Under the pieces are notes generated by a model. It did no database searches. It worked only from the letters and a program-made list of their open reading frames with translations, and had not been told where the DNA came from. The position numbers and the translations under genes were made by a program. Below are positions 1-38,797 of a stretch of 64,000 nucleotides of DNA, in pieces. Every line of letters starts with the position of its first letter. The stretch's first letter is position 1. Source of the stretch: Propionivibrio dicarboxylicus (GTDB taxonomy: Bacteria > Pseudomonadota > Gammaproteobacteria > Burkholderiales > Rhodocyclaceae); the NCBI GenBank assembly GCA_945902805.1, contig CAMDMZ010000019.1, positions 22,772 to 86,771 on the forward strand. Reading direction: 5' to 3'.

Positions 1-1035
1 ACCTACCTCGCCGACATGGCGCCGGTCGTTGCGCTCAAGCCCGACGCCCTGATCATGGCCGACCCCGGCCTGATTCTGATGATCCGCGAAACCTGGCCGG
101 AGATGCCGATTCATCTTTCGGTCCAGGCCAACACCATGAACCATGCCGCCGTGCGTTTTTGGAAGAGCATCGGCATCAGTCGTGTCATTCTCTCGCGCGA
201 GCTATCGCTGGATGACATCGCCGAGATCCGCCAGGAATGCCCGGATATGGAGCTCGAAGTCTTCGTCCATGGCGCATTGTGCGTCGCCTATTCCGGGCGC
301 TGCCTGCTCTCCGGCTACTTCAATCATCGCGACCCGAACCAGGGCACCTGCACCAACAGTTGCCGCTGGAACTATGACGTCAAACCGGCCACCGAAAACC
401 CGGCCGGCGACGTCTATCTGATCGAAGAAGAAACCCGCCCCGGCAACCTGATGCCGATCGAGGAAGACGAGCATGGCACCTACATCCTCAACTCGAAAGA
501 CCTTCGTGCAATCGAACACATCGCCCAGCTCACCGAAATCGGCATCGACTCGCTGAAAATCGAAGGCCGCACCAAGTCGGCGTATTACGTCGCCCGCACC
601 TGTCAGAGCTACCGCCAGGCGATCGACGATGCGGTGGCCGGACGACCCTTTGATGGCCGTCTCGTCGCCGAGCTCGATGGTCTCGCCAACCGTGGCTACA
701 CGCCAGGCTTTTACGACCGTCACCCGGACCGCGAGTATCAAAACTATCTGACCGGCCTGTCGCAAATGGGCAGCAGCCAGTATGTCGGCGACCTCACCGG
801 CTACGCGGAGGACGGCTGGGCCGAGATCGAGGTCAAGAACAAGTTTTCGGTTGGCGATCGCATTGAGCTGATTCACCCCACTGGCAATCGCCAGCATGTC
901 ATCGAGCGCATGCAAAAAGTCGGTGCTGGCGGGACGGCGCCGGATGACATCACCGTCGCCCCGGGCAGCGGACATCGCGTCCGCGTGTCGCTTCCCCCTG
1001 CTTACGAAGGGGCTTTTCTCGCCCGATTCGCATAA
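1..1035 (+). CDS. trhP: Peptidase U32 family protein, TrhP/YegQ-like tRNA hydroxylation protein (5' truncated by window edge)
   Basis: Frame open from base 1; motifs ELEVFVHGALCVAYSGRCLLS, NQGTCTNSCRW and DSLKIEGRTKSAYYVA typical of U32/YegQ. Confidence 0.85.
   Translation, partial: TYLADMAPVVALKPDALIMADPGLILMIRETWPEMPIHLSVQANTMNHAAVRFWKSIGISRVILSRELSLDDIAEIRQECPDMELEVFVHGALCVAYSGRCLLSGYFNHRDPNQGTCTNSCRWNYDVKPATENPAGDVYLIEEETRPGNLMPIEEDEHGTYILNSKDLRAIEHIAQLTEIGIDSLKIEGRTKSAYYVARTCQSYRQAIDDAVAGRPFDGRLVAELDGLANRGYTPGFYDRHPDREYQNYLTGLSQMGSSQYVGDLTGYAEDGWAEIEVKNKFSVGDRIELIHPTGNRQHVIERMQKVGAGGTAPDDITVAPGSGHRVRVSLPPAYEGAFLARFA
914..938 (+). repeat. VGAGGTA dispersed repeat copy 1 (in trhP, sense)
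   Basis: aaaaagtcggtgctggcgggacggc; consensus; encodes QKVGAGGTAP. Confidence 0.95.
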
Positions 1036-26153: not shown

Positions 26154-28718
26154 TTGAACGCCATCGACATTTTCCCTTGGGACGACAACTTCGACACCGG
26201 GCTCGCCACCGTCGATGAGCAGCACCGCAAGCTGGTCTGGCTACTGAATCAACTGGCCAGCAATGTGGCCTTTGGCGCGAATGCCGCCAAGCTCAACGAA
26301 ATTTTCGACGAGTTGCTCGACTACACGGTCTATCACTTCCAGGCCGAGGAAGCGATCTGGCGCCAGTACATGCCGGACGACCGCAGCGAAATTGAGCACC
26401 GCGCCGTACATGCCTCGTTCGTCGCCACCGTTCTGCGTTTGAAGGCGGAACAAAACCACAAGCCCCTGGCACAAATTGCCGAAGAGGCCCTGGAGTTTCT
26501 GGTGCGCTGGCTCGCCTCGCACATTCTGGAAACCGACCGCCTGATGGCGCACGTCGTCCTCGGCCTGCAAAGCGGCTTGTCGCTAGCTGCGGCCCAGATC
26601 CAGGCGAACGAACGAATGAGCGGTTCCACGCGGACCATGATCGACATCATTCTGTCGATCTACGGCACGCTGTCGCGCAATACCTTGCAACTGATGCGCG
26701 AACTGGTCGAACGCAAACAGACCGAGGATGCCCTGCGCATCAGCCAAGAGCGACTTTCCTTCGCTCTGACCGGTACCAATGACGGGCTCTGGGACTGGAA
26801 CCTCGATACCAACGCCGCCTATTACTCGCCGCGCTGGCTGGAAATGCTCGGTTACGAGGCCGACGAACTGCCGCACACCATGAACACCTGGGCGACGCTG
26901 GTTCATCCCGACGATAAGGACCGCACCCTGGCGGCGGCGGCCGACTACGTTGCTGGCCGCATTCCGACCTTCGACGTTGAATTCCGCATGCGTCACAAGC
27001 AAGGCCACTGGCTGCACATTCTGGCGCGCGGACATCTGGCGCGCGATGCCGCCGGCGAGTTGTTGACGCCACGTCGGATTGTCGGCACTCACATGGATCT
27101 CACCGAGCGGAAGAAAACCGAGGAAGCCCTCCGGCGCGAACGGGAAAACCTGCAGCTCATCCTCGACCATGCGCCGATCGGCATCTGGTTGCAGGATGGC
27201 TCTGGCCAGATGTCTTTCGTCAACAAAGCCTTTTGCGACGCCGTCGGGATTACCGAAGAGCAATTCCTCGCCGTCCCCCATTACGGTGAACTGATCGATC
27301 CCGCCTTTCGCCCCCAATGTCTCGCCTCCGATACCAAGGCGCTGGCGAGCACCGGCATCAGCGAAACCCATCAGCAACTGCCCTTCGTCGATGGCAAGAT
27401 CCACGACCTGCACGTCATGAAGGCCGTCAAGCGCGACGCGTCAGGAAAACCGGTTGCCCTGGTTGGCATCAGTGTCGACATTACCGAAGAACTGAAACAG
27501 CAGCGCGCCCTCGAAGAAGCCAAGCGCGCGGCAGAAGCCGCCAACCTGGCCAAGAGCCAATTCCTGGCCACTATGAGCCACGAGATTCGCACGCCGCTCA
27601 ATGGCGTGCTTGGCATGGCGCAGTTGCTGCTGATGCCCGACCTCGATCACAACGAGCAACAGGAATTTGCCCGCACCATCCTCAATTCCGGCAATACCCT
27701 GCTCGCTCTCCTGAACGATGTACTCGACCTGTCCAAGGTCGAAGCCGGTAAGCTGGAACTGGTCACGGCGAGTTTCGATCCCACGCAACTGCTCGATGAA
27801 GTCGCCGCCTTGATGGTCGAGAATGCTGCCCGCAAAGGGCTGGCGCTGGCGGCTCACTGGCAGAGTACGCCGGACACCAGCTACCGTGGCGATCCGATCC
27901 GCATCCGGCAAATGCTCGGCAACCTGGTCAGCAACGCCATCAAGTTCACCGATCATGGGCAGGTATTGGTCACCGCCAGCGAAACCCAGCGTGAAGATCG
28001 GAACGGGGTCGCTTATGCCCACGTTCGTTTCACCGTCAGCGATACCGGTATCGGCATCCCCGCCGACAAACTCGACCGGCTATTCCAACCGTTTTCGCAA
28101 GTGGATGCCTCTGAAACACGACGCTTTGGCGGCACCGGTCTGGGCCTGTCGATTATCCGCTCGCTGGCCGAGCGCATGGGCGGCGAAGTCGGCGTTGAGA
28201 GCACCGATGGCAAGGGTTCACGTTTCTGGTTCGAGTTACCGCTCGAAATTGTCAGCGCCAGCACCGATCATCGTAGCGTCCCCCGCAGCGCCGAGCTAAG
28301 CGTGACCGCCAATGAGGAAGGCACCTCGGCCGGCCGCGTTTTATTGGTTGACGACAGCACCGTGAATCGCTTGGTCGTCGAACGCCTGCTGGCCAAGTTT
28401 CACTTCAGCGTTATCAGTGTCGAGGACGGTGCCCAGGCCCTGGATCATTTTCGGCGCGACGGCCACAGCGTCGACCTGATCCTGATGGATCTGCAAATGC
28501 CGGTCATGGACGGACTTGAGGCGGCGCGACAAATCCGCGCTCACGAAGCCCGCGAAACCGGCGGCCATATTCCGATCATCGCCCTGACCGCCAACGCTTT
28601 CGACAAAGACCGCACCGCCTGCGTCGAAGCCGGCATGGACGACTTCCTGGCCAAGCCGGTCAACACCAATCAATTGTTGCTGACTATTGAAACCTGGCTG
28701 GCACGGCGACTGAGATAA
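26154..28718 (+). CDS. Hemerythrin-PAS-PAS-histidine kinase-REC hybrid sensor
   Basis: TTG start; hemerythrin N-terminus ([12 protein letters not shown]...YHFQAEE...HASF...SHILETD); [27 protein letters not shown]. Confidence 0.88.
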
Positions 28719-37094: not shown

Positions 37095-38168
37095 TCACGC
37101 CGTATCGGTCCAGCTATCTACCCAATCCAATGGATACCTGCCCCACTTTTCGACCGCGTCGCCAATCGCCAAAAGGACCTCTTCAGGCACCTGCCAGGGG
37201 ATCTCGCCATGATTATCGGCGAGCAGGAAGCCACCGCCACGACCCGCTTGGGCAATCGCACGCTTGACATGCGCTTCAGCGTCCCGAGGTGTCCAGCGCC
37301 GCATTTCGATGCCATTGAGATTGCCTAGCAGACTGACGCGCTTGGCGGCAGCCGCTTTCAACTCACCCAGATCCTCGAGCATGCTGACCCCCACCACGGC
37401 AGTGCCGGTATCGGCGATATCGGCGACGATCGGCAGACACCGCCCGGAAGCCATGTGCGTGGCGGTTGGTCCCTTGATCTGGCCAATCGCGCGCTTCGCC
37501 ACCTGCTGCCCGGTAGTCAGGTATAGCTCGCGCGGAATATTGGTGGTCGATGAGAGTGGATCGAAGTAGCAAATGGCAGTAGCACCCGCCGCCAGTTGCG
37601 CATTGGCCCATTCGACAGTAAAGCCGATATTCAGATCCATCAGGCGCTCGAAACGTGCCGGCTGTTCGTAGATCAGTTCGATATATTTATCGAAGCCCAT
37701 CTGCATCACTGGCAAGGAAAATGGCGAGATGGCAACGGCAATAATGGGCACCGTATCGCCGACCCGCTCCTTCAACTGGCGGATGGTTTCCAGCACGCGC
37801 TGCAAGCAAGGTGACTCCATGACGCGCGGCGCCTGCAGGGTATCTATATCCTCGGGACAGGTGATGACCGGTGGCCCGCACAGCGGCGGACCATCGGGCA
37901 GGAAGAGTGTGCTGCCACCCCAGGCTTCAGTTTCGATCGAGGCATAGAAAAACGGGTAGAGGCAATCGCCACGATATTTCTGCAACAACCGCATCTGCCC
38001 GGCGACGACATTTTCGGCACGCGAGAAATACTCCTCGATCGACAGCCCTAGTTCCTTGGCGCCATGCATGGTGGTCAGCAGGAACAGCGGTACACGGTCA
38101 GGTTCTTGCTGGCCGAGGGTGGTCAGCGTGCGTTGCATGGAGGTCATGCTTGGAGACATGGCGTTCAT
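37095..38168 (-). CDS. Uroporphyrinogen decarboxylase/MtaA-like methyltransferase family protein
   Basis: UroD-fold signatures: DRVPLFLLTT, GATAICYFDPLSSTTNIPREL, SLLGNLNGIEMRRWTP, LADNHGEIPWQVPEE. Confidence 0.8.
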   Translation of the reverse strand: MNAMSPSMTSMQRTLTTLGQQEPDRVPLFLLTTMHGAKELGLSIEEYFSRAENVVAGQMRLLQKYRGDCLYPFFYASIETEAWGGSTLFLPDGPPLCGPPVITCPEDIDTLQAPRVMESPCLQRVLETIRQLKERVGDTVPIIAVAISPFSLPVMQMGFDKYIELIYEQPARFERLMDLNIGFTVEWANAQLAAGATAICYFDPLSSTTNIPRELYLTTGQQVAKRAIGQIKGPTATHMASGRCLPIVADIADTGTAVVGVSMLEDLGELKAAAAKRVSLLGNLNGIEMRRWTPRDAEAHVKRAIAQAGRGGGFLLADNHGEIPWQVPEEVLLAIGDAVEKWGRYPLDWVDSWTDTA

Positions 38169-38797
38169 TGCAGTTCTCCCATCCAGCCTTCGACAATACT
38201 GACGGCTTCGGCGGCGCTGCTGCCCATGGCATCGGCACCGACCTCACGCCACATCTGCTCATCGAACAAGAATGGCGCCCCGCCGACGAGCACCTTGACC
38301 GGCGCCCCGACGGCCTTCAGTTTGGCGCAAACGTCGCGCACCTTCAGCGCCGAGGGCAGGATCAGCACCGAAATCATCAGCACACGCAGCTTGTCGGCCA
38401 ACACGCGCTCCACCAGTTCATCGACATCCATGCGGCCGTAGTCAAACAACTCGAAGCCACTGGCACGCATCACCGAATAGACGATGCGCTTGCCGAGCAT
38501 GTGGTAATCGCTGAGCACCACAATCGCCGAACGCGGCTGGTGTTTGCGATCCGGATCGCTCGGCGGCAAAACACGCTCGACCAACTCTTCGCAGAAGCGG
38601 CCACTCATATAAACCTGCGACAGCGCCACCGTGCCGTCATGCCAAGCCTGGCCGACCCGAACCAGCGTCGGCACCACCAGACGTTCCACAACCTGAATCG
38701 GCGTGTTTTCCTTGAGTGCCTCGCGAAACAGGGCGTCGGCGCGAAGTTTGTCCAATGACTCCAGCGCTTCCTGGAATTGTGCGATCTGTTGATCCAT
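38165..38797 (-). CDS. Corrinoid (B12)-binding protein of the methyltransferase type
   Basis: Helical N-terminal cap; DYHMLG matches DxHxxG, followed by SVLIL (SxL) and GGAPF (GG). Confidence 0.88.
   Translation of the reverse strand: MDQQIAQFQEALESLDKLRADALFREALKENTPIQVVERLVVPTLVRVGQAWHDGTVALSQVYMSGRFCEELVERVLPPSDPDRKHQPRSAIVVLSDYHMLGKRIVYSVMRASGFELFDYGRMDVDELVERVLADKLRVLMISVLILPSALKVRDVCAKLKAVGAPVKVLVGGAPFLFDEQMWREVGADAMGSSAAEAVSIVEGWMGELQ

Follow-up and report, generated by a model that had tools for sequence, protein, structure and literature searches.

A conserved corrinoid protein, MtaA-like protein and DUF1638 gene set joined to kinase or GGDEF outputs: a candidate sensor module possibly based on methyl transfer

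Introduction

MttC, MtmC, MtaC and MetH (7xcn, 3ezx, 2i2x and 1bmt) are two-domain corrinoid carriers with the motifs DxHxxG, SxL and GG. The protein P0001 described here has the same two domains and the same motifs, whereas its identity to these carriers is only 17–28% in the fold search, and its gene is located among signalling genes. In the type 1 mlp clusters, an MtaA-like protein and a corrinoid protein are encoded together in non-methanogens (Kountz & Balskus, PMC10418091). These clusters are metabolic, they need two or more MtaA-like proteins together with Ram, and they carry His-Cys-Cys zinc ligands. In contrast, the P0001 locus encodes a single MtaA-like protein with altered ligands and a fusion of DUF1638 to a kinase, and it is without Ram. 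Membership of the locus in this type was considered and rejected, three of the tested features being different.

DUF1638 accompanies a corrinoid protein, with adjacent genes, in the methionine synthase of Phaeobacter and in the glycine betaine demethylation of Ruegeria (PMC5764234; PMC12478193). There the domain stands alone and is metabolic, with RamA, whereas that of the P0001 module is fused to a GAF-kinase or to GGDEF. In Phaeobacter inhibens, the stand-alone DUF1638 adjoins the corrinoid part of methionine synthase, and DUF1638 mutants are rescued by methionine, i.e. B12-dependent methionine synthesis is lost (PMC5764234).

Among signalling proteins, CarH, the photocobilins and the AerR/AppA-type B12 or SCHIC sensors use a cobalamin-domain protein to control a signalling output, and some are fused to a cyclase (PMC10979010; PMC11796333). 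CarH and the photocobilins use adenosylcobalamin and light and carry W-x10-EH, whereas P0001 is without the EH pair and has a methyltransferase homologue as obligate partner. In the literature searched, which included few subscription papers, no description of a corrinoid protein in a module with a kinase, GGDEF or two-component system was found.

Results and discussion

Gene run in the window

The window is the whole stretch of DNA analysed, 64,000 nucleotides from Propionivibrio dicarboxylicus. The P0001 gene is located in a minus-strand run from P0006 to P0005 (Table 1). The P0006 gene lies 20 bases upstream of the P0001 gene, and the P0002 gene begins within the stop of the P0001 gene with a 4-base overlap (ATGA). 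P0002 and P0003 are separated by 13 bases, and the P0004 gene overlaps the preceding P0003 gene by 4 bases. These short gaps and overlaps suggest that the run is a single transcription unit. According to Pfam, the annotated genes of the run beside P0001 and P0002 are signalling genes only. From its adjacency, P0004 is likely the partner of P0003, and P0006 likely serves as the c-di-GMP output. P0005 is outside the conserved core.

Table 1. Genes of the run and parts of P0001 and P0003 (gene positions in the window, parts in protein numbering).
Feature	Position	Strand	Size	Description	Basis
P0006	38818..41103	(-)	761 aa	receiver-GGDEF-EAL protein	ORF, Pfam
P0001	38165..38797	(-)	210 aa	corrinoid protein, ATG start	ORF, Pfam, homologues, model
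P0001 parts				four-helix cap (G49xxW52, L59-S-Q61-V-Y63) and Rossmann B12 domain	
P0002	37095..38168	(-)	357 aa	MtaA/CmuA-like protein, URO-D superfamily	ORF, Pfam, TIGR, conserved residues
P0003	35312..37081	(-)	589 aa	DUF1638-GAF-histidine kinase	Pfam, model
P0003 DUF1638	about 1–172			C10, C38, C66, C88	
P0003 helix	176–223				
P0003 GAF fold	228–311				
P0003 kinase	to 588			helix into DHp with H362, then ATPase	
P0004	33327..35315	(-)	662 aa	receiver-histidine kinase-receiver	ORF, Pfam
P0005	30586..33330	(-)	914 aa	dCache-PAS-histidine kinase-receiver, last signalling gene of the run	ORF, Pfam

The Rfam scan of the whole window gave no cobalamin riboswitch or other RNA at the gathering threshold, and the promoter and terminator scan gave results no better than those of shuffles. 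On the strand opposite to the run, a hemerythrin-PAS-PAS-kinase-receiver protein, likely an oxygen-related sensor, is encoded at 26154–28718 (+) of the window.

Corrinoid protein P0001

A sequence-only reading of this DNA had proposed that P0001 retains the full B12-binding signature DxHxxG/SxL/GG and likely binds cobalamin, rather than being degenerate. The signature is present as DYHMLG (residues 97–102), SVL (143–145) and GGAPF (172–176). When the whole window is translated in six frames, the pattern D.H..G...S.L...GG is found only once, in the P0001 gene, and it appeared in 5 of 200,000 shuffles of P0001. Asp97, His99, Gly102, Ser143, Leu145, Gly172 and Gly173 are invariant in all 82 full-length homologues. 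Pfam assigns the B12-binding_2 cap (PF02607) to residues 6–75 (E 2.5e-12, 47.2 bits against a cut-off of 23) and the B12-binding domain (PF02310) to residues 92–198 (E 1.7e-14, 54.1 bits against 32.1). The AlphaFold2 model has a mean pLDDT of 93.5, and its Foldseek matches are MttC (7xcn), a Desulfitobacterium cobalamin protein (4jgi, TM 0.80) and MetH. P0001 scores below the curated cut-off of TIGR02370, the methylamine-type corrinoid protein (74.4 bits against 215.3). In the cap, Trp is present where MttC and MetH have Phe, and the LSQV segment is similar to the LPQV segment of MetH.

The ORF, the motifs and the invariance of the signature agree with the first part of the earlier proposal. 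As to the second, the signature invariance, the Pfam domains and the confident model with its fold matches predict well that P0001 is probably a cobalamin-binding protein.

MtaA/CmuA-like protein P0002

P0002 belongs to the URO-D superfamily (PF01208, 173 bits), and its nearest solved structure is the methylcobalamin:CoM methyltransferase 4ay7 (E 1.2e-18). The score is below the curated cut-off of the MtaA/CmuA methyltransferase family TIGR01463 (105.1 bits against 235.4). The zinc site of the thiol methyltransferases is His-Cys-Cys, and Cys is replaced in the O-methyl enzymes (PMC10418091). At this site, the third ligand of which was placed by motif and not by full alignment, the P0002 family does not have the His-Cys-Cys ligands: Ala240 (88 of 88) and Ser241 (87 of 88) are found where Cys is expected, together with His238 (87 of 88) and His320/Glu322 (88 of 88). 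Asp24, Asp68, Glu79 and Asp203 are also invariant. Judged from these residues, the altered site would fit a non-thiol methyl donor or lost zinc chemistry, and P0002 may have a changed activity or none. Of the three core parts, it is the most strongly conserved, with a mean identity of 0.66 against 0.54 and 0.40.

P0003 and the DUF1638 domain

P0003 has the phosphoacceptor His and the ATPase boxes of a histidine kinase (HEINTP at 362, NLINNS at 489, DDGVGM at 524 and GMGLGM at 549; HATPase_c E 1e-20). Its DUF1638 scores just above the Pfam cut-off (27.8 bits against 27). The DUF1638-GAF part is predicted with a pLDDT of 95.9, and its helices lead into the kinase. The fold search with the P0003 model gave mainly GAF and sensor-kinase matches for the part after DUF1638 and no solved relative of DUF1638, and the DUF1638 profile had no match among PDB sequences.

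The DUF1638 cysteines are kept to a high degree: Cys88 in 70 of 70, Cys66 in 69, Cys10 in 68 and Cys38 in 66. Equivalents of Cys10, Cys66 and Cys88 were found by eye in the stand-alone DUF1638 of the same genome. These cysteines are a possible metal site, or a possible thiol that meets the corrinoid.

As an unselected control, 369 genomes of one class were scanned for DUF1638 alone. The scan gave 31 matches in 29 genomes, and 30 of the 31 lie beside a corrinoid protein (the match of the window was counted by its annotation). The divergent DUF1638 type was found in six genomes, and these are the same six that encode a P0001-like protein. This adjacency and the requirement for methionine synthesis in P. 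inhibens are best explained if DUF1638 is a partner domain of corrinoid proteins; its fusions would then link the corrinoid to the signalling output. The scan (L119–L142) also suggests a general role beside corrinoid proteins in the class for this family, the function of which has been unknown so far.

Occurrence in other genomes

In relatives fetched from other genomes, the order corrinoid protein, MtaA-like protein, DUF1638 is kept; the window shares it with most of 87 other loci. The MtaA-like alignment was used to scan 84,980 species genomes, and the best 80 of 388 relatives were read. These database loci, chosen by the MtaA-like gene, come mostly from metagenome bins, and their ORFs are mechanical. 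Among the best 80, the corrinoid gene is adjacent to the MtaA-like gene in every case, and DUF1638 is next in 64 of the 75 loci uncut by contig ends. In 55 of these 64 loci, DUF1638 has an output domain attached, which is a histidine kinase in 47 and GGDEF in 8. No output domain was found in the other nine, five of which run into a contig end. According to Pfam, 63 of 67 third-gene proteins contain DUF1638, 49 contain HATPase_c and 8 contain GGDEF. In 70 of the 80 loci, a gene for a kinase, receiver, GGDEF or EAL protein was detected on the same strand within 4 kb, the profiles for the first three being seeded from proteins of the window and relatives of these; eight of the remaining ten are on stretches shorter than 12 kb. 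The sequence-only reading had called the placement of P0001 among kinases striking. The placement is real and conserved, and the gene after next encodes the DUF1638-histidine kinase fusion.

The carriers belong to several phyla and include Rhodocyclaceae, Zoogloeaceae, Comamonadaceae, Methylococcaceae, Thiotrichaceae, Chromatiaceae, Thermodesulfobacteriota, Chloroflexota, Nitrospirota and others, and several are microaerophiles or sediment bacteria. No relatives were found in viral contigs.

Eleven loci are without DUF1638, nine of them from one Desulfobacteraceae clade, and ten have an unknown gene instead. In the Desulfobacteraceae this gene encodes about 245 residues with no confident Pfam match (L075:11175-11897, L079:11111-11881, L089:3385-4173, L092:11068-11799 and similar), and in most of these loci a hybrid histidine kinase gene is located just upstream of the corrinoid gene. 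That the gene is a diverged DUF1638 was ruled out by Pfam and an iterated profile. In a Hyphomicrobiales bin (L057:4183-6174), a type-2 corrinoid protein and its MtaA-like partner are apparently fused naturally, and the fusion adjoins a second DUF1638 and a hybrid kinase.

Divergence is correlated among the core genes (Mantel r 0.79 and 0.87, p 0.001). On a quick tree of the concatenated corrinoid and MtaA-like proteins, with one long branch flagged, the state of the third gene (kinase, GGDEF, stand-alone or none) requires 11 changes, and the GGDEF state at least three on well-supported (starred) branches. The output domain is exchanged repeatedly, and the core is constant. A signal-input module shows this pattern, a fixed core to which either a kinase or a cyclase can be attached.

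A RamA-type activase is absent from 8 of the 11 module-bearing genomes tested, six of these being 98–100% complete. Zoogloea ramigera (G035, named by identity with L044) is one of the genomes without RamA. The genome of the window has a single Ram, of the RamA type, on another contig, and none is present in the P0001 run. We infer that the absence of RamA is more in keeping with a sensor than with a pathway of high turnover, because a sensor needs few turnovers, for which slow or borrowed activation could be enough; this is not easily so for a catabolic demethylase.

Proposed mechanism and alternatives

What is directly observed is the module and its conservation, its gene fusions with exchanged output domains, and the general link between DUF1638 and corrinoid proteins. 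It is likely that the P0001 module is a signal-input module built on a corrinoid protein. P0001 probably bears a cofactor and serves as a sensor subunit. The sequence-only reading had set a cofactor binder against a sensor domain; the cofactor part is supported, and the contrast is probably false.

In the mechanism proposed here, P0001 would carry the corrinoid base-off, with His99 below the cobalt, as the motif and fold suggest. P0002 would transfer the methyl group of a small methylated compound to the cobalt, or remove it from there. The DUF1638 of P0003 would then dock on P0001 and distinguish methylated from free corrinoid, possibly by means of the conserved cysteines. According to the domain order in the model, the signal would pass through the helix and GAF to His362 of the kinase, and from there it may reach the receivers of P0004 and P0006 and set the c-di-GMP level. 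We consider it probable that the three parts feed two-component/c-di-GMP signalling, with DUF1638 reading the state of P0001 and methyl transfer as the likeliest signal. That methyl transfer itself is what the module senses has a little under an even chance; the missing activase in most genomes speaks against it, Co(I) being needed for the transfer. We propose more tentatively a widespread class of bacterial sensors, in which a corrinoid protein and a methyltransferase use one methyl transfer as the sensing reaction, and DUF1638 converts the methylation state into kinase or diguanylate cyclase activity.

The same signalling module may instead sense redox state, oxygen or corrinoid supply, in which case DUF1638 would read either Co(II)/Co(I) or P0001 without corrinoid, and P0002 would be a non-catalytic or substrate-gating relic. 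The missing activase, the altered zinc site, the three to four conserved cysteines, which could hold a metal or Fe-S site, and the microaerophiles and sediment bacteria among the carriers are consistent with this. However, P0002 is the most conserved part and has invariant residues, which argues for selection on its active site, and we regard this alternative as rather unlikely. An ordinary metabolic demethylase operon that merely lies beside its own regulators appears still less probable: the corrinoid-partner domain is fused to an output domain in most loci, the annotated run consists of signalling genes only, and RamA is missing from most carriers. These features outweigh the membership of P0002 and P0001 in families of known demethylases and methyl carriers, and the existence of similar pairs with RamA, one even in the same genome.

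It is highly improbable that P0001 is a light receptor of the CarH/photocobilin kind using adenosylcobalamin. The photoreceptor GxxW is kept in the cap in 82 of 82 homologues, and a photocobilin-like protein in the same genome adjoins a kinase with a core 63% identical to that of P0003. However, nearly all homologues have V/I-Y in place of the EH pair, the loop of the cap is similar to the LPQV segment of MetH, P0001 is without a globin domain, and the methyltransferase homologue is always present. The CarH/photocobilin assignment was rejected on the EH positions: that of E is V, I or L in 80 homologues and T or Y in 2, and that of H is Y in all 82.

To our knowledge, few cobalamin-based sensors are known apart from the B12 light receptors. 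We regard the P0001 module as two-component/c-di-GMP signalling with an apparently unreported type of input; should the sensing reaction prove to be methyl transfer, the module would represent a new class. A B12-borne reaction may then serve sensing rather than synthesis. If true, the proposal would account for the many environmental bacteria that retain these genes but have no activase. It would also assign DUF1638 a role, the reading or handling of corrinoid proteins, and it could show by what means bacteria of sediments and wastewater detect methylated compounds.

Related loci in the same genome

A sister locus on another contig of the same genome (C52, L021:9057-17053) encodes a RamA activase, a second corrinoid protein, a second MtaA-like protein (28% to P0002), a stand-alone DUF1638, a PAS-kinase-receiver-Hpt protein and a receiver-HD-GYP protein. 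Similar loci elsewhere (L119/L143 and L137/L149) have a kinase gene downstream, and L143 also has GGDEF and EAL. The photocobilin-like protein (contig C13, L022:3134-5418) is a 366-aa B12 protein with W-x10-EH, and by eye its N-terminal region may be a photocobilin globin domain. With the kinase beside it, one kinase core is found with two kinds of B12 input.
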